DNA of 56,377 nucleotides from the NCBI GenBank assembly GCA_029776065.1, contig JARVJP010000009.1, positions 114,911 to 171,287 of the forward strand. Reading direction: 5' to 3'. This document shows positions 7,958-14,415 of this stretch, in pieces. The notes beneath the pieces are model-generated. The model searched no databases. It was not told where the DNA came from and worked only from the letters and a program-made list of their open reading frames with translations. Both the position numbers and the translations under genes were made by a program. Origin of the DNA: Nitrososphaeria archaeon. GTDB taxonomy: Archaea; Thermoproteota; Nitrososphaeria; JACIWG01. Within the stretch, counting starts at the first letter, position 1. Each line of letters begins with the position of its first letter.

Positions 7958-8953
7958 ATGGAAGAAAAAAAACTTTGTTTAGGTATAGAGTCAACAGCAC
8001 ATACATTTTCAGTAGCAATAGTGTCAAAAGATAAAATATTAGCAGATGAGAGGGAAGTCTATAAACCTCCATTAGGCGAGGGAATTCATCCGTACGAGGC
8101 AGCACAACATCATTTCAGGGCTGCAAGGAAAGTTCTACAAAATGCGCTTAAGAAGAGTAAGAGAAAGATTGAAGATATGGATGTCATAGCATATTCAGCT
8201 GGCCCAGGTCTTGGGCCTTGTTTAAGAGTTGGTGCAGTAGTTGCAAGATCTATTTCTACATATTATGATAAACCTATGACTGCAGTTAATCATGCAATGG
8301 GACATATTGAACTTGCCAATTTTTTTTCAAAAGCAAAGGACCCTGTGATAGTACTTGTTTCTGGAGGGCATACCCTTGTCTCTACATATCTACATAAAAA
8401 ATGGAGGATATTCGGTGAAACACTTGATATCACCTTAGGTCAACTTTTTGATCAATTAGGAAGAGAGATGGGGTATAACTCACCAGCAGGTAAATATATT
8501 GAGACTTTAGCTGGTCAAGGAACAAAATACTTAGATATGCCGTATACCGTTAAAGGTAATGATGTGTCATATTCAGGGTTATTGACATTTGCTAAGAATC
8601 TTCTAAAGAAAGATAATAAAAGAGAGGATGTCTGCTTTTCAGTGCAAGAGACAGCATTTGCGATGTTAACAGAAGTAACTGAAAGACTATTAGCTTTTTC
8701 TGAAAAACGTGAAATAGTTTTGACGGGAGGAGTTGCAGCAAACAAAAGATTGCAGGAAATGATCAAGAGCTTGAGCTTAGTACATAATTCGAGCTTTTCC
8801 GTTATACCACGGAAATATAGTGGGGATTGTGGCGCTCAGATAGCTTTAGTTGGACTTTTACAATATGAAAGTGGAAATGTTGTAGAAGTTGATAAAAGCT
8901 TCATTAAACAATCTTGGAGAATAGATGAGGTTCATGTGACATGGAGAAACTGA
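7958..8953 (+). CDS. kae1: KEOPS subunit Kae1 (tRNA t6A threonylcarbamoyltransferase)
   Basis: 331 residues, ASKHA fold. It transfers threonylcarbamoyl from TC-AMP to A37 of ANN-decoding tRNAs. The metal-binding HxxxH is H112/H116 in NHAMGHIE; VSGGHT (134-139) and the late SGDCGAQIA element are family signatures. ATG start close to the promoter. The end overlaps the Bud32 gene by 13 bases, and Pcc1 lies further down the same strand, so three KEOPS parts are in this window; Cgi121 is not seen. Confidence 0.96.
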   Translation: MEEKKLCLGIESTAHTFSVAIVSKDKILADEREVYKPPLGEGIHPYEAAQHHFRAARKVLQNALKKSKRKIEDMDVIAYSAGPGLGPCLRVGAVVARSISTYYDKPMTAVNHAMGHIELANFFSKAKDPVIVLVSGGHTLVSTYLHKKWRIFGETLDITLGQLFDQLGREMGYNSPAGKYIETLAGQGTKYLDMPYTVKGNDVSYSGLLTFAKNLLKKDNKREDVCFSVQETAFAMLTEVTERLLAFSEKREIVLTGGVAANKRLQEMIKSLSLVHNSSFSVIPRKYSGDCGAQIALVGLLQYESGNVVEVDKSFIKQSWRIDEVHVTWRN

Positions 8954-9567
8954 TCAAAGTTGGTGCTGAAGCGAACATATATCTAGACAATTGGGATGGC
9001 ATAAAAGTTGTCAGAAAGACAAGGAGACCAAAACCTTATTGGAAAAAGGAACTTGATGACAAAATTAGAAGAACAAGGACAATACGAGAAGCCCAGTTTC
9101 TGACTAGCGTTAAAGAATTAGGTGTACTAACACCTATAGTATATTTCGTCGACCCTTTCTTAGGCGAAATAATAATGGAATATGTAGATGGAGTTAGAGT
9201 TAAAGACCTTCTTAACATGGACTCAAAGACAGGTTTCATTATGCTTTATGAAGCCGGGAAAGGTCTAGCTAAGATGCATAAGCATAACATCATACATGGA
9301 GACCCTACTACTTCGAACTTTATCATGCGTGACAGAAAACTTTACTTTATAGATTTTGGACTTGCGTTTTACTCTACACGATTAGAAGATAAGGCTGTCG
9401 ATCTACATCTCCTAAAACAAGTAATTAAGAGTGCACATCCCGAAGTCTTTAGTAAAGGATTTAAAATGGTTATAGAAGGATACCAACAAATTTTTGGCAT
9501 AGTTAAACCAGTATTAGACAATATAAAAGAAATTGAGAGGAGAGGGAGATATGCCACACTTGATTGA
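8941..9567 (+). CDS. bud32: KEOPS subunit Bud32 (atypical kinase/ATPase)
   Basis: 208 residues, minimal RIO-like kinase fold. Visible: lysine in IKVVRKTRRPKPYW, invariant Glu in TIREAQFL, catalytic loop HGDPTTSN (family usually HGDLTTSN), and metal-binding DFGLAF. Bud32 acts as a P-loop-less ATPase supporting Kae1 in t6A synthesis. In several archaea the two are fused; here they are separate but overlap by 13 bases. Confidence 0.95.
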   Translation: MEKLIKVGAEANIYLDNWDGIKVVRKTRRPKPYWKKELDDKIRRTRTIREAQFLTSVKELGVLTPIVYFVDPFLGEIIMEYVDGVRVKDLLNMDSKTGFIMLYEAGKGLAKMHKHNIIHGDPTTSNFIMRDRKLYFIDFGLAFYSTRLEDKAVDLHLLKQVIKSAHPEVFSKGFKMVIEGYQQIFGIVKPVLDNIKEIERRGRYATLD

Positions 9568-10135
9568 TAACAAGGTATATTTTGTCACTGGAAACGATAA
9601 AAAAGTTCTTGAAGCTAAACAAGTACTTTCCAATTATAGCATTCAAATAGAAAAGATTAAAATGAATAAAATAGAAATACAGTCCGATAGACTTGAATCT
9701 ATAGTTTCTTATGCACTTAAGCAAATGCCTGAAGATAGCAGGCGTATAATAGTAGAGGATTCAGGTCTTTTTGTTAAAGCATTAAATAACTTTCCAGGCC
9801 CCTATTCATCATATGTTTTTAGGAAGATAGGATGCGAAGGAATATTGAAGTTAATGCAAAATGAGACGATTAGAACGGCTAAATTTGTTTCTATAATAGG
9901 GCTCAGAAATAAAAATAAAGAAATTTTTATATTCAAAGGAGAAGTTGATGGCAAAATAACCTATAAAAAGGCGGGACGATTCGGATTTGGATTTGATCCG
10001 ATCTTTGTACCGAATGGATGTGAACAAACTTTTGCACAAATGAGAATTTATCAAAAGAATGCTTTATCTCATAGAGGGAAGGCATTCAAGGCAGTTGGTG
10101 AGTGGGTGTGTTCACAAATGACAAAACATATTTAA
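9551..10135 (+). CDS. XTP/dITP diphosphatase (RdgB/HAM1 family)
   Basis: 194 residues. The family hallmark VTGNDKKVLEAKQVL near the N terminus binds the triphosphate; VEDSGLFV and GFGFDPIF follow, and LSHRGKAF near the C terminus recognises the base. It hydrolyses ITP, dITP and XTP to keep deaminated purines out of RNA and DNA. I take the ATG at 9551 with a GAGGAGAGGGAG Shine-Dalgarno; a TTG six codons earlier is less likely. It overlaps Bud32 by 17 bases. Confidence 0.93.
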   Translation: MPHLIDNKVYFVTGNDKKVLEAKQVLSNYSIQIEKIKMNKIEIQSDRLESIVSYALKQMPEDSRRIIVEDSGLFVKALNNFPGPYSSYVFRKIGCEGILKLMQNETIRTAKFVSIIGLRNKNKEIFIFKGEVDGKITYKKAGRFGFGFDPIFVPNGCEQTFAQMRIYQKNALSHRGKAFKAVGEWVCSQMTKHI

Positions 10136-10138: not shown

Positions 10139-10163
10139 GTTAAACTAGAGAGTGTGTTCGCAC

Positions 10164-10613
10164 ATGACAAGACAATATTCGCATAAAAGGGGGAAAGCGC
10201 ACTCAATTAGGCCTGTCTATAAACTTAGTCCTCCATGGGTAACTTACACACCAGAAGAAGTAATATCTTTAATAATCAAGATGGCAAATGAAGGTTTAAC
10301 CCCTAGTCAAATAGGCATTAAGCTTAGAGATGAATATGGGATACCATTACAGAAGCAAATTACAGGTAAAACAATAACAGAAATATTAAGGGAAAACAAT
10401 ATCATTCCAAAGGTGCCTCATGATTTAGATAATTTGATTAAAAAAGCTCAAAGGTTAAAGGAGCATTTGAAAGTTCACAAGAAAGATGGGAAAAATGTTA
10501 GATCACTCGAATTAGTTGAGGCAAGAATACATCGACTTTCAAGATACTATAAAGAAAAAGGCTTTCTAGATAAAAGTTGGAAATATAAAGCAGAAATAGC
10601 ACAACTAGAATAA
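10164..10613 (+). CDS. rps15: ribosomal protein uS15
   Basis: 149 residues, archaeal/eukaryotic S15p/S13e form with the N-terminal extension (MTRQYSHKRGKAHSIRP). The conserved core includes SLELVEARIHRLSRYYK. It binds helix 22 of 16S rRNA. ATG at 10164 is preferred over an in-frame GTG four codons earlier because it fits the TATA distance and the usual N terminus. First gene of the run uS15-GAN-Pcc1-SerRS2-eS1. Confidence 0.96.
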   Translation: MTRQYSHKRGKAHSIRPVYKLSPPWVTYTPEEVISLIIKMANEGLTPSQIGIKLRDEYGIPLQKQITGKTITEILRENNIIPKVPHDLDNLIKKAQRLKEHLKVHKKDGKNVRSLELVEARIHRLSRYYKEKGFLDKSWKYKAEIAQLE

Positions 10614-10623
10614 GTGCTACATC

Positions 10624-12051
10624 ATGGGCCTCAAAGAGTTCAAGGAGAAAACAGAAGACATATCAGAGTTGATTGAGACAACTATCGATGAAAGGAAACA
10701 AATCATTATTATTTGCCATCTAGATGCAGATGGAATAACTTCAGGAAGCATTATAGGAAAGAGTATCTTCAAGGAGGAAGGAAGAGCAGTAATCAGAGCA
10801 GTTAATGACCTGGGCCCAAATCAGATATTTAACCTTAAAAAGCAAGAATATGATTTCTATATATTTACAGATATAGGAATGGGGTATGTTGAGTTGTTAG
10901 ACAAAGAATTAGGTGAACGATGGATAATTTTGGATCACCATCAAAGCTCAGAAGATGAAATAAAGCATCAAAGGGTATTGAACCCCTATGAATTTGGAAT
11001 AGATGGGGGAACAGAAATTTCTGGCGCAGGGGTAGCTTATATGACTGCAAAAAAACTTAATAGTTCAAACAGGGAGCTCTCAGCATTAGCTATTGTAGGT
11101 GCCTTAGCAGATAGACAAGACCAAGGCCCGTCTAGAAGCTTAATCGGGATAAATCAAAAGGCGATCTTAAAGGATGCGAAATATATTGGATTAATAAAAG
11201 AAGAAAAAGATTTAATTTTCTATGGAAGAGAAACTAAACCAATACATGAATCAATTGGCTCTACAAATATCCCCTTTATACCCCTTATAACAGGAAATTA
11301 TGATGCATGTCTAGCAGCACTTGTATCTGCCAACTTTAAGGTAAAGGAAGGAGACAGGTGGAGAACTATATCAGAACTTTCATATGAGGAAAAAATGAAA
11401 TTAATTGAAATATTAATACCTTACATAACAAAAAGTGGAGCTAAAGGTGAGGTCATAGAAGAACTCTTCGGAAATGTGTATACATTATTAAAGGAAGAAG
11501 AAAGATCTATTTTAAGAGATGCTCGAGAATTTGGTTCACTGCTTAACGCATGTGGTAGGGAGGGAAAAGCAGGTTCTGGAATATTAATATGCTTAGGAGA
11601 CAGAGATGAAGCCTATTCTGATGGTGAGAAGATACTTCAAGATTATAGAAGAACCTTGATGAAATACCTTCAAATAATAAACACTGATGCAAAAAGAATG
11701 ATTAGTGGGAAAAAAATTGTACAGATAATTGGAGATGAATTAATAGACGAGAAAATGCTAGGTGCGGTTTCTTCCATATTGTCAAGCTCCTTGGCGTTTA
11801 AAGAAAAAATATTAATTGTTAGAACGAAAACAAAAGAAAATGATCTAAAAATTTCTGCCAGAAAAGGAAATAACACACTTAAGGAAATTAATTTAGGTCT
11901 AACAATTAAGGAACTTTCTAAGAAGTTAAACGGTTCGGGGGGAGGGCACGTTGCAGCAGCAGGTGCGAAAATACCATTGGAATCTTATGAAAAGTTTATT
12001 GCAGAAATGATAAAAAAGGTTGGCGATGAGGAAAACAAGATTGAGTCTTAA
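10624..12051 (+). CDS. archaeal RecJ-like single-strand nuclease (GAN/Cdc45-like)
   Basis: 475 residues, DHH superfamily. Motifs: CHLDADGI (D34, D36), FTDIGMG, LDHHQ (D105-H107), GALADRQD and the DHHA1 element GSGGGHVAAAG near the end. All metal ligands are present, so it should be an active exonuclease. The archaeal homologue associates with GINS at the replication fork and is the counterpart of Cdc45. It lies between uS15 and Pcc1, a common archaeal arrangement. Confidence 0.9.
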   Translation: MGLKEFKEKTEDISELIETTIDERKQIIIICHLDADGITSGSIIGKSIFKEEGRAVIRAVNDLGPNQIFNLKKQEYDFYIFTDIGMGYVELLDKELGERWIILDHHQSSEDEIKHQRVLNPYEFGIDGGTEISGAGVAYMTAKKLNSSNRELSALAIVGALADRQDQGPSRSLIGINQKAILKDAKYIGLIKEEKDLIFYGRETKPIHESIGSTNIPFIPLITGNYDACLAALVSANFKVKEGDRWRTISELSYEEKMKLIEILIPYITKSGAKGEVIEELFGNVYTLLKEEERSILRDAREFGSLLNACGREGKAGSGILICLGDRDEAYSDGEKILQDYRRTLMKYLQIINTDAKRMISGKKIVQIIGDELIDEKMLGAVSSILSSSLAFKEKILIVRTKTKENDLKISARKGNNTLKEINLGLTIKELSKKLNGSGGGHVAAAGAKIPLESYEKFIAEMIKKVGDEENKIES

Positions 12052-12286
12052 ATTTGAGACATATGATAAAAAAATGGCTTTAGCAATATTCAAATCCTTA
12101 AGTCCAGATAATGTAAACATTCCAAGGGAATTATCGTTTAACTTTAAACTTGACAACAATTGTATTCTCCTTCAAGTTACTACAAAAAGCGATTTAGAAA
12201 CGTTAATATCTACAGTAAGAGAGGTGCTCGATAATATAGGGTTATGCGTTCAAGTAATAATGGTGAGTAATAATGACAAAAATTAG
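12026..12286 (+). CDS. pcc1: KEOPS subunit Pcc1
   Basis: 86 residues, CTAG/Pcc1 fold. LSLKFETYDKKMALAIFKSLSPD at the start and LETLISTVREVLDNI in the middle match the family. Pcc1 dimerises the KEOPS complex and helps tRNA binding. ATG at 12026 is used; a TTG two codons earlier is possible. It overlaps the GAN gene by 26 bases and SerRS2 by 14. Confidence 0.85.
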   Translation: MRKTRLSLKFETYDKKMALAIFKSLSPDNVNIPRELSFNFKLDNNCILLQVTTKSDLETLISTVREVLDNIGLCVQVIMVSNNDKN

Positions 12287-13796
12287 TATGGATATTGAAG
12301 GATATTTCGTTTTAAGTAAGGAACATGAAGAAGTTAGTAGAATAATTGAAGAAAGCTTTGAGGAAACAAAGGTTGTATTATTAAGAGGTTCTGAAAAAGA
12401 TCCGCAGAATGCATGTTATTTGAAAAATTACAAAGTTGTTGGTAACACCCTTTTTGTAAACCTCACTTCAGGAAACTTGGTTAGAGCACATGTAGGAATG
12501 CTTAGGTTAAAGAAGATTTTCGCAAAGAAACTTGGTGAAAAACTGAAGATTGGGATTAGAGATTCTGGGACCAAGAAATTTGAGATTATTTTAAAACAAA
12601 AAATGGATGAAGTTTCAATAAATAAGATTAAGTCAATAACAAAGGTATTAAATGTTAGAACTGAGGGAGAAAGCACTGTTATTGAACTTCAACCTCTGGG
12701 AGAACAAGATCTAAGAGAAAATCTGGTAGATAGATTGATAACTTTAGTTGAAGAAGTGGCTAGAGAAAAACATGCAACTTTTGAACAGGTGCAGCCTGTA
12801 GTAAAAAGTTCAAATAGAAAGGAAATCAAGTTTTCAGGAGATCCTCTGATTTCAGGTTTAGAAATTGGATGGGTAGTCAACTTTCCTGGTAGAGGACAGT
12901 TTATTTATACAAGTAAATATGGAGCATTATTTGAAGTAATAAAGTCAATTTTGATTGAAAATGTTGTGAAGGCAAATGGATTCAAGCCTTTCCTTTTACC
13001 AAAACTTATACCATTTGAAGTTATGAAAAAAATGCCGGGGTACTTTGACAATATTCCAGAAGGAATGTTTTATGTTTCACCACCTCCACGGGAGCCGGAG
13101 GCCTTTGATAAATTCAAGCAAGAGTATAAGATTAAAAAGGAGATTCCAATAGAAGAATTAAAAAAAATTCTAAAGGACCCAGCTTATGTTCTTGCACCAG
13201 CTCAGTGCGAACCTTTTTGGCATTATTATAGTGTTATAAAACATAGCATTTCAGATTATCCTTTAAAATATTATGATTCATCAGGATACACATATAGATG
13301 GGAAGGAGGGGGTGTAGAAGGATTGGTTAGGGTCACAGAGTTCCAAAGAATAGAACTAACATATGTCGGTCTTCCTGAACAAGTTGTGAATATCCGTGAT
13401 AAAATTGTTGAAAAAGGAGTTTATGTAGCGGATAAAATTTTAGACTTGGAGTGGAGAGTAACAGCAGCTGCTCCATTTTATGTTAAGCAAGCTTCTACAG
13501 AGTTTGACCCATTTAACAGCGTAGATGTCCCAGCTTACGATATTGAGATATACCTCCCGTATAGAGGACCAAGAGAAAAGTCCGAATGGTTAGAGGTTGC
13601 GGGATGTTTTGTACACAAGAAAAAATTCGTAGAATCATTTAAAATAAAGAGTGAAGAGGGTAGTGAGATCTGGACGGGGTGTACGGGTTTAGGTCTATCC
13701 AGATGGGTAGCGGCTTTCCTAGCAGAGAAAGGTTTTAAAGAAGAGGATTGGCCAGCTAACGTATTAAAGAAATATCAAGAAATATTAGGTGAATAA
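12273..13796 (+). CDS. serS2: seryl-tRNA synthetase, rare class II zinc type (SerRS2)
   Basis: 507 residues. This is the atypical SerRS first described in methanogens, unlike the common bacterial-type enzyme. The three zinc ligands of the active site can be placed: C312 in AQCEPFW, E356 in RVTEFQRIE and C470 in WTGCTGLGL, lining up with C306, E355 and C461 of the Methanosarcina barkeri enzyme. The N-terminal tRNA-binding domain (1-170) is also of this type. Motif 2 and 3 regions are intact. ATG start with a GGTGA Shine-Dalgarno inside Pcc1; followed by eS1. Confidence 0.93.
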   Translation: MTKISMDIEGYFVLSKEHEEVSRIIEESFEETKVVLLRGSEKDPQNACYLKNYKVVGNTLFVNLTSGNLVRAHVGMLRLKKIFAKKLGEKLKIGIRDSGTKKFEIILKQKMDEVSINKIKSITKVLNVRTEGESTVIELQPLGEQDLRENLVDRLITLVEEVAREKHATFEQVQPVVKSSNRKEIKFSGDPLISGLEIGWVVNFPGRGQFIYTSKYGALFEVIKSILIENVVKANGFKPFLLPKLIPFEVMKKMPGYFDNIPEGMFYVSPPPREPEAFDKFKQEYKIKKEIPIEELKKILKDPAYVLAPAQCEPFWHYYSVIKHSISDYPLKYYDSSGYTYRWEGGGVEGLVRVTEFQRIELTYVGLPEQVVNIRDKIVEKGVYVADKILDLEWRVTAAAPFYVKQASTEFDPFNSVDVPAYDIEIYLPYRGPREKSEWLEVAGCFVHKKKFVESFKIKSEEGSEIWTGCTGLGLSRWVAAFLAEKGFKEEDWPANVLKKYQEILGE

Positions 13797-13797
13797 A

Positions 13798-14415
13798 ATG
13801 CCTAAAAGAACTTTAAAAGTAAAGGATAAATGGAAAGAGAAAACTTGGCTTCAAGTAGAAGCTCCTTCAATATTTGGAAACAAAATTGTTGCAAAGGTTC
13901 CGGTAACAGAAACAGATAAGGCTGTAGGAAGAACTATTGAGACAACTTTATTTGATCTAATCGGAGAAGACGAGGAACAATATTCAATTAAGTTAAAATT
14001 TCAAATAGAGAGAATCGAAGAAAAAATTGCAAAGACAAACTTCAAACAATTTGAGCTTGCTAGGGAAACACTGAAGAGTCTTATCCGTAAGGGATCATCT
14101 ATTATTGATTTCTACAAGGATATCGAAACAAAGGATGGAGCGAAACTCAGAGTATTTGTTATAGTATACACCACATCAAGAGTAAACACTTCAAGGAAGA
14201 AAGCAATTAGAAAGATTGCTGACAAAATTGTAGAAGCCAAAGCAAACAAACTTACCTTTGGACAGTTCGTTTTAGAGTCAGTATTAGGGAAAATAGCGTC
14301 TGAGATATTTAATGAATCAAAAAGGATTTCTAAAATCAGATATTCTAGCGTTAGGAAGCTAAAGGTACTTAGTTATCCAAAACAGGAAGAAAAGGTGTAT
14401 CCAGTTAGCCCCTAG
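13798..14415 (+). CDS. rps3ae: ribosomal protein eS1 (S3Ae)
   Basis: 205 residues; KVKDKWKEKTWLQVEAPSIF at the N terminus is diagnostic of S3Ae. A 30S platform protein near the mRNA exit. ATG chosen with TTAGGTGA Shine-Dalgarno; the gene starts one base after the SerRS2 stop. The last 11 bases overlap the convergent GTPase gene. Confidence 0.96.
   Translation: MPKRTLKVKDKWKEKTWLQVEAPSIFGNKIVAKVPVTETDKAVGRTIETTLFDLIGEDEEQYSIKLKFQIERIEEKIAKTNFKQFELARETLKSLIRKGSSIIDFYKDIETKDGAKLRVFVIVYTTSRVNTSRKKAIRKIADKIVEAKANKLTFGQFVLESVLGKIASEIFNESKRISKIRYSSVRKLKVLSYPKQEEKVYPVSP

Follow-up and report, generated by a model that had tools for sequence, protein, structure and literature searches.

The stretch of DNA analysed here, 56,377 nucleotides from a Nitrososphaeria archaeon and referred to below as the window, carries a predicted gene for a type-2 seryl-tRNA synthetase (SerRS2) within a run of genes that all read in the same direction (Table 1). 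Translation gave a single open reading frame without internal stops for this gene. By their Pfam matches, the neighbouring genes encode Ham1, uS15, a DHH/DHHA1 phosphoesterase (which we take to be GAN/RecJ-like), Pcc1, eS1, and an Obg-like GTPase, in agreement with the names given in a preliminary description of this DNA. The placement of SerRS2 between Pcc1 and eS1, reported there as well, is borne out by the profile matches to the two border genes. The least certain of the labels is Bud32, for which the Pfam matches are of the kinase/RIO type only. Overlap of SerRS2 with eS1 hinges on the GTG start of the latter, as the alternative ATG lies directly after the SerRS2 stop codon.

Table 1. Genes of the SerRS2 operon in the window.
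Feature	Coordinates	Strand	Remarks
Bud32-like kinase, conserved operon	8941..9567	+	PF00069/PF01163; name from preliminary description and gene order
Ham1/ITPase-family protein, conserved operon	9533..10135	+	PF01725, 158.4 bits
Ribosomal protein uS15, conserved operon	10152..10613	+	PF08069, PF00312
DHH/DHHA1 phosphoesterase, conserved operon	10624..12051	+	PF01368, PF02272, PF21763
Pcc1 (KEOPS subunit), upstream slot border	12020..12286	+	PF09341, 33.2 bits; 14-bp overlap with SerRS2
SerRS2 (predicted)	12273..13796	+	507 aa; PF18490 at residues 7-163; class II core 304-485; C312, E356, C470
Ribosomal protein eS1, downstream slot border	13789..14415	+	PF01015, 195.9 bits; start GTG 13789 or ATG 13798

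The window protein matches PF18490, the SerRS2-type tRNA-binding domain, with 103.9 bits (cut-off 25), and the class II core PF00587 with 34.5 bits (cut-off 29.3). Its top solved relative is the SerRS2 of M. kandleri (3w3s; 364 bits, E 1e-107, window residues 7-506), and the solved SerRS2 of M. barkeri (2cim) matches with 268 bits (E 2e-78); both alignments are near full-length. Residues 312, 356, and 470 are Cys, Glu, and Cys, and the same letters are aligned in both structures, at positions that we take to be the zinc ligands of the M. barkeri enzyme. All three ligands had been named in the preliminary description, and the alignment upholds this. The best matches of the protein are two NCBIfam SerRS2 equivalog models, NF002120 (506.8 bits) and TIGR00415 (440.2 bits), and it falls under both cut-offs (611 and 489.55 bits), which are naming thresholds rather than mechanistic features; that of TIGR00415 is also missed by an Asgard (L006) and a Thermoplasmatota (L007) gene. 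The canonical SerRS model TIGR00414 gave only 18.3 bits against a cut-off of 301.65. Judged by its sequence, the gene is a type-2 SerRS, an ordinary enzyme family in an unexpected bearer.

The genome from which the window derives (1.74 Mb in 16 contigs, 95.5% complete) contains exactly one PF18490 match in a profile search. A search of this same assembly with TIGR00414 found no canonical SerRS over the cut-off, and searches with TIGR03256 and PF02249 found no match to mcrA; both enquiries had been proposed in the preliminary description. Apart from SerRS2 itself, TIGR00414 matched a single protein in the genome (37 bits), which was considered as a second SerRS and rejected, since it is a ProRS (TIGR00408, 467.7 bits). 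Homology, the intact residues, and the lack of another candidate suggest that the window protein charges tRNA-Ser. By analogy with the solved homologues, it would activate serine at the Cys/Glu/Cys zinc site and bind tRNA-Ser through its own N-terminal domain.

The lineage belongs to the Nitrososphaeria, probably to the deep-branching order JACIWG01, which is given as the deepest-branching order of this class in the available text of PMC10833072. Four relatives' loci encode proteins 72-85% identical to the window protein, three of them from Nitrososphaeria archaeon MAGs and one from an uncultured archaeon. One locus (L005) is 85% identical over 209 residues and has the accession prefix JACIWG01, which suggests that the window's family, f1, is JACIWG01.

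Distribution of the two SerRS types

In an even draw of 398 genomes from the window's phylum, SerRS2 (PF18490) was found in 64 genomes, spread over 34 of 164 genera, and canonical SerRS (SerRS1) over its cut-off in 308. None of the 64 SerRS2 genomes carried a canonical SerRS over the cut-off (best E 7e-14). In a class-wide draw, SerRS2 passed its cut-off in 9 of 300 genomes, which belong without exception to families f1 and f70. In an Asgard phylum (centre G624), SerRS2 was present in 54 of 195 genomes and canonical SerRS over the cut-off in 118; both types passed in one of the 54 carriers, and one more had a partial canonical gene. SerRS2 and SerRS1 thus show near-complete mutual exclusion across TACK and Asgard archaea, with these Asgard exceptions, as judged by comparing the genome lists by eye on tables. 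The preliminary description had offered, as one of two readings, a broader occurrence of SerRS2 in TACK archaea than hitherto assumed, and the counts agree with this.

The first of the Asgard exceptions, G784, has a full canonical SerRS and a lower-scoring SerRS2 domain (72 bits); the second, G687, has SerRS2 and, where a contig ends, an incomplete canonical gene that scores under the cut-off. Either transitional states or contamination would explain the two. Among 21 genomes with neither type, a search for a third SerRS type with TIGR00415 returned nothing useful besides an incomplete SerRS2 in G264 (E 2.4e-31) and a match of 18 bits in G001. Three genomes that are 98-100% complete, G001 (f6), G373 (f65), and G027 (f22), had neither type over the cut-offs, reflecting either assembly gaps or divergent SerRS genes that were overlooked. 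Because G001 has no eS1 match either, its lack of a SerRS is most simply explained by a gap in the assembly. G489 was dropped as a SerRS2 carrier, as its PF18490 match (19.8 bits) lies under the cut-off and no SerRS2 open reading frame was found.

These counts bear on whether the window protein is a SerRS at all. It could be a divergent relative, such as a paralogue resembling amino acid:carrier protein ligases, with the real SerRS lost in assembly gaps; its scores under both SerRS2 equivalog cut-offs, a weak match to NF005479, and the 95.5% completeness of the genome would fit. However, the SerRS2-specific N-terminal tRNA-binding domain, the full set of zinc ligands, and the near full-length match to two solved SerRS2 enzymes all argue against this, and chance gaps cannot account for the absence of SerRS1 over the cut-off from every one of the phylum's SerRS2 genomes. 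We regard this explanation as highly improbable.

The zinc ligands are largely conserved in the SerRS2 alignment: C312 is present in every one of the 76 rows and C470 in all 74 that are readable at this position, and E356 is kept in 67 of 75, the remaining 8 having Ala. In Asgard archaea, the ligands are Cys, Glu, and Cys in 30 rows, which cover those 30 of the 54 carriers whose loci were given. The eight Ala-type proteins (L070, L090, L095, L096, L099, L101, L104, and L105) belong to families f10 and f21, and no canonical SerRS over the cut-off was found in their genomes. All eight have Glu at window position 398, which is found in 0 of 95 other rows; this Glu is possibly a relocated zinc ligand. 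Two SerRS2 open frames of family f70 (L120 and L121) are longer than the others, at 639 and 613 aa from stop to stop, and may have terminal extensions, if translated.

The Pcc1-eS1 slot

Occupancy of the place between Pcc1 and eS1 was compared in 96 loci, a hand-picked set whose fractions are not population estimates. It comprised 77 eS1 regions from 80 family-named genomes (three had no eS1 match) and 19 loci near the slot operon. A SerRS was counted as lying in the slot if Pcc1 or DHH matches of more than 20 bits were found farther upstream of eS1 than the SerRS, other genes in between being allowed. By this rule, the slot is occupied by SerRS2 in 18 loci, of which 10 (from 6 families) have the gene forward and 8 (from 2 families) reversed. 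SerRS1 fills it in 10 loci, reversed in 1 and forward in the other 9, which represent 7 families. In 8 more loci, SerRS1 lies upstream of eS1 with no Pcc1 or DHH found farther upstream (6 forward, 2 reversed). Pcc1 or DHH precedes eS1 without a SerRS between them in 40 loci, with a gap of less than 400 bp in 36 and a larger one in 4. No upstream operon genes were found in 19 loci, and in the remaining one (G007) the contig ends in SerRS2 before any eS1.

Forward SerRS2 genes in the slot come from families f1, f28 (G059), f19, f43, f39, and f32; the reversed ones are the eight Ala-type genes of f10 and f21. Canonical SerRS fills the slot in f2, f5, and f69 of the window's own class, and also in f6, f28, f38, and f58. 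Depending on the lineage, this operon place thus holds SerRS2, canonical SerRS1, or nothing, and we refer to it as the SerRS slot. The preliminary description had stated that other archaea have no SerRS between Pcc1 and eS1; among these hand-picked genomes, this holds for the 40 loci with an empty place and fails for the 28 with a SerRS of either type.

Several loci depart from the common arrangement. SerRS1 is reversed in the slot or upstream of eS1 in G219, G261, and G011 (L173, L176, and L198), and lies about 1.1 kb from eS1 in G035. Many SerRS2 genomes have the gene elsewhere than in the slot. In G403 and G406, both of f70, the slot contains no SerRS, and their SerRS2 comes from another branch. 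In f1, the four loci that show both slot borders (G000, which is the window's genome, G401, G404, and G407) share the same arrangement, which is matched upstream in G398 and downstream, by eS1, in L005, to the limit of their contigs.

A change of occupant was observed between close relatives in genus g51 of family f28, represented by G059, G154, and G276. The slot holds SerRS2 in G059 and SerRS1 in G154, and the operon proteins of these two genomes are 96% identical over 1256 columns. Their upstream DNA aligns in two pieces at 96.0% and 95.7% identity (2229 and 2248 bp), between which G154 has about 1.1 kb extra. The match reaches about 20 bp past Pcc1 and then stops, leaving a non-aligning middle of 1644 bp with SerRS2 in G059 and of 1371 bp with SerRS1 in G154. 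Common downstream DNA starts within the last codons of SerRS2 and, with eS1 included, is 93.2% identical over 1220 bp. The pair thus records a recent gene-for-gene exchange in the slot. It is for this pair, rather than for the window's own branch, that the same flanks with unlike occupants are documented in close relatives.

As SerRS1 is in the slot or beside eS1 in G276, in G073, likewise of f28, and in G087, the cheapest history is a recent change from SerRS1 to SerRS2 on the G059 branch. No SerRS1 over the cut-off was found elsewhere in G059, which is 99% complete. The contig in this draft genome ends 1.2 kb beyond SerRS2, and we consider misassembly at the junction unlikely. No tRNA-Ser was identified in G059 or G154 among the RF00005 matches read with ARAGORN, which were part of the 74 listed. 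Together with the mutual exclusion described above, the pair suggests that the two SerRS types are interchangeable, and it constitutes a natural experiment on swapping an essential synthetase.

Age and origin of the window SerRS2

A careful SerRS2 tree was built from 74 rows, without the partial sequence of G398 and the fragment of G007; G398 was left out of all SerRS2 trees, including one that contained G007. In the tree without G007, f1 is sister to a group of G059 with G160 and G019 (families f28, f43, and f19), in which G160 and G019 pair. The set of seven formed by f1 and these three has support of 100/100, and the group of three 86/89. When G007 was included, f1 nested inside that group with moderate support. 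A quick tree of flanking operon proteins, in which genomes with at least 3 of 6 genes were kept (62 of 96), placed f1 with f70, f69, f5, and f2 inside the Nitrososphaeria (10 rows, SH-aLRT 99) and f19, f43, and f28 in another group (99). The split of f1 from f28, f43, and f19 in the SerRS2 tree thus mirrors that of the flanks. At deeper levels of SerRS2, rows from TACK, Asgard, and euryarchaeal genomes are intermingled in a quick tree that likewise left out G007 and gave long-branch warnings; the deep branches, where the long rows of M. kandleri, M. barkeri, and L007 come together, were not relied on.

The preliminary description had offered descent from, or gene exchange with, methanogens as the other of its two readings, and this found no backing: mcrA was matched neither in the window's genome nor in the clade of f1 with f28, f43, f19, and the fragment of f11, of which G007 is only 76% complete. 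Among the TACK SerRS2 genomes, mcrA was matched in 5 of 72, of which four belong to f37 and the fifth to f40. On the SerRS2 tree, three changes suffice for the slot label, against six for the mcrA label. A recent acquisition from a methanogen would be in line with the description of SerRS2 from methanogens in the available text of PMC10817482 and PMC4427996. Against it, M. kandleri, M. barkeri, and the mcrA-bearing f37 and f40 fall in other clades, the nearest rows outside f1 have no mcrA match, and the arrangement is common to the four f1 loci with both borders. A phylogeny had been suggested to look for a recent euryarchaeal donor, and the gene does not lie inside one in these trees, which hold two euryarchaeal methanogen sequences. 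We consider such an acquisition extremely unlikely.

Residence in a core operon with tight overlaps had been taken in the preliminary description as a sign of old, stable residence. The argument does not carry, because the same slot was recently exchanged in g51; the conclusion is nevertheless likely to be right on other grounds. The shared arrangement in the four f1 loci, extended by G398 and L005, and the agreement of the SerRS2 and flank trees make old residence of SerRS2 in f1 likely.

Two histories could account for an old gene. Retention of the f1 SerRS2 from a common ancestor with the Bathyarchaeia-like lineages fits the mirroring of the flank tree by the SerRS2 tree. Alternatively, a Bathyarchaeia-like SerRS2 displaced a resident SerRS1 in the f1 slot by ancient transfer, much as happened recently in G059, which shows that such a displacement can occur. 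SerRS1 in the same slot of other Nitrososphaeria families (f2, f5, and f69), the placement of f1's nearest SerRS2 relatives in other classes, and the nesting of f1 among Bathyarchaeia-like rows when G007 is included all speak for a transfer. Without G007, however, f1 falls outside G019, G059, and G160, as the flank tree leads one to expect, and, if f1 is JACIWG01, the deepest branch of the class according to the portion of PMC10833072 at hand, retention needs no transfer at all. We lean slightly towards retention, which we rate above ancient transfer; the latter is a serious alternative that we hold to be somewhat less than even in probability.

Forcing the SerRS1 genes of the Nitrososphaeria and those of the Bathyarchaeia-like slot carriers into a single clade costs 75.7 log units (AU p 5e-49). 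This grouping, which set 19 rows against 18 with f2, f5, f69, copies of f3 and f4 from away from the slot, and 13 Bathyarchaeia-like rows, was chosen after sight of an earlier tree. The result suggests repeated entry of SerRS1 into the slot, unless some copies have left it.

Taken together, the window gene is very probably the sole working, zinc-dependent SerRS2 of a non-methanogen, in a slot where SerRS2 and SerRS1 replace one another in place. The conserved translation/KEOPS operon has the order Bud32-ITPase-uS15-DHH-Pcc1-[SerRS]-eS1, the brackets marking the slot, where two presumably isofunctional enzymes with unlike tRNA-binding domains can substitute for each other. In such an exchange, a second gene may be acquired at the slot and the first then lost, with the expression of the operon being reused. 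Only tentatively, and with odds that we put well below even, we also propose that SerRS2 is the original archaeal SerRS, which sat in the Pcc1-eS1 slot of an early TACK ancestor and was repeatedly displaced there by bacterial-type SerRS1, the change now and then running the other way, as in G059. If so, the slot records how one of the essential enzymes of the genetic code has turned over in place, and SerRS2 is neither an oddity of methanogens nor a gift from an extinct lineage.

Comparison with known systems

In gene displacement in situ, a distant equivalent takes the place of an operon gene and the neighbours stay. The exchange described here shares this principle and differs in that the alternating genes encode SerRS types whose tRNA-binding domains are unlike, and that a single slot is affected in several lineages, in one case with flanks of 93-96% identity. 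Omelchenko et al. (2003), cited in PMC9839398, reportedly described such displacement for mosaic operons. What is new is the wide distribution of SerRS2 and its exchangeable operon slot; the enzyme family itself is known. With the solved type-2 enzymes (2cim and 3w3s; also called methanogenic-type, rare, or SerRS-A), the window protein has in common its domain order, PF18490, the class II core, the Cys/Glu/Cys set, and near full-length homology. Unlike them, it is the sole SerRS found in a genome without an mcrA match, is encoded in the Pcc1-eS1 slot, and scores under the NCBIfam cut-offs. With canonical SerRS1 (TIGR00414), it is expected to share the reaction, and it shares the operon slot used by SerRS1 in f2, f5, f6, f28, f38, f58, and f69; the tRNA-binding domain of SerRS1 has an unrelated fold and its active site has no zinc, according to the available text of PMC10817482.

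The same 2024 review states, in the portion at hand, that this SerRS is "confined only to methanogenic archaea". In the accessible part of PMC4427996, the rare SerRS is placed in methanogens and in recipients of secondary transfers, one of them a lineage related to Thermoplasmatales; Korarchaeota, Thaumarchaeota, and Crenarchaeota are given the common form, and an argument for an extinct donor is built on this methanogen-centred distribution. PMC8821087, as far as its text was available, roots SerRS so that the methanogenic type separates from all others, takes that type as ancestral in Archaea, and proposes that the bacterial type was taken up later by most of them. A literature search, which was thin on subscription journals and cannot establish absence, found neither SerRS2 described from TACK or Asgard archaea nor mention of a shared slot.

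The sorting of common and rare SerRS among methanogens, as presented in the available text of PMC4427996, resembles our findings in that relatives carry one type or the other, which was read there as functional equivalence. In contrast to the methanogen-centred rare form of that study, the carriers here belong to TACK and Asgard archaea, and the two types share a slot. Their distribution, the near-complete exclusion of one type by the other, and the common slot make the choice between the views of PMC4427996 and PMC8821087, as given in the accessible parts of both, testable on existing genomes.
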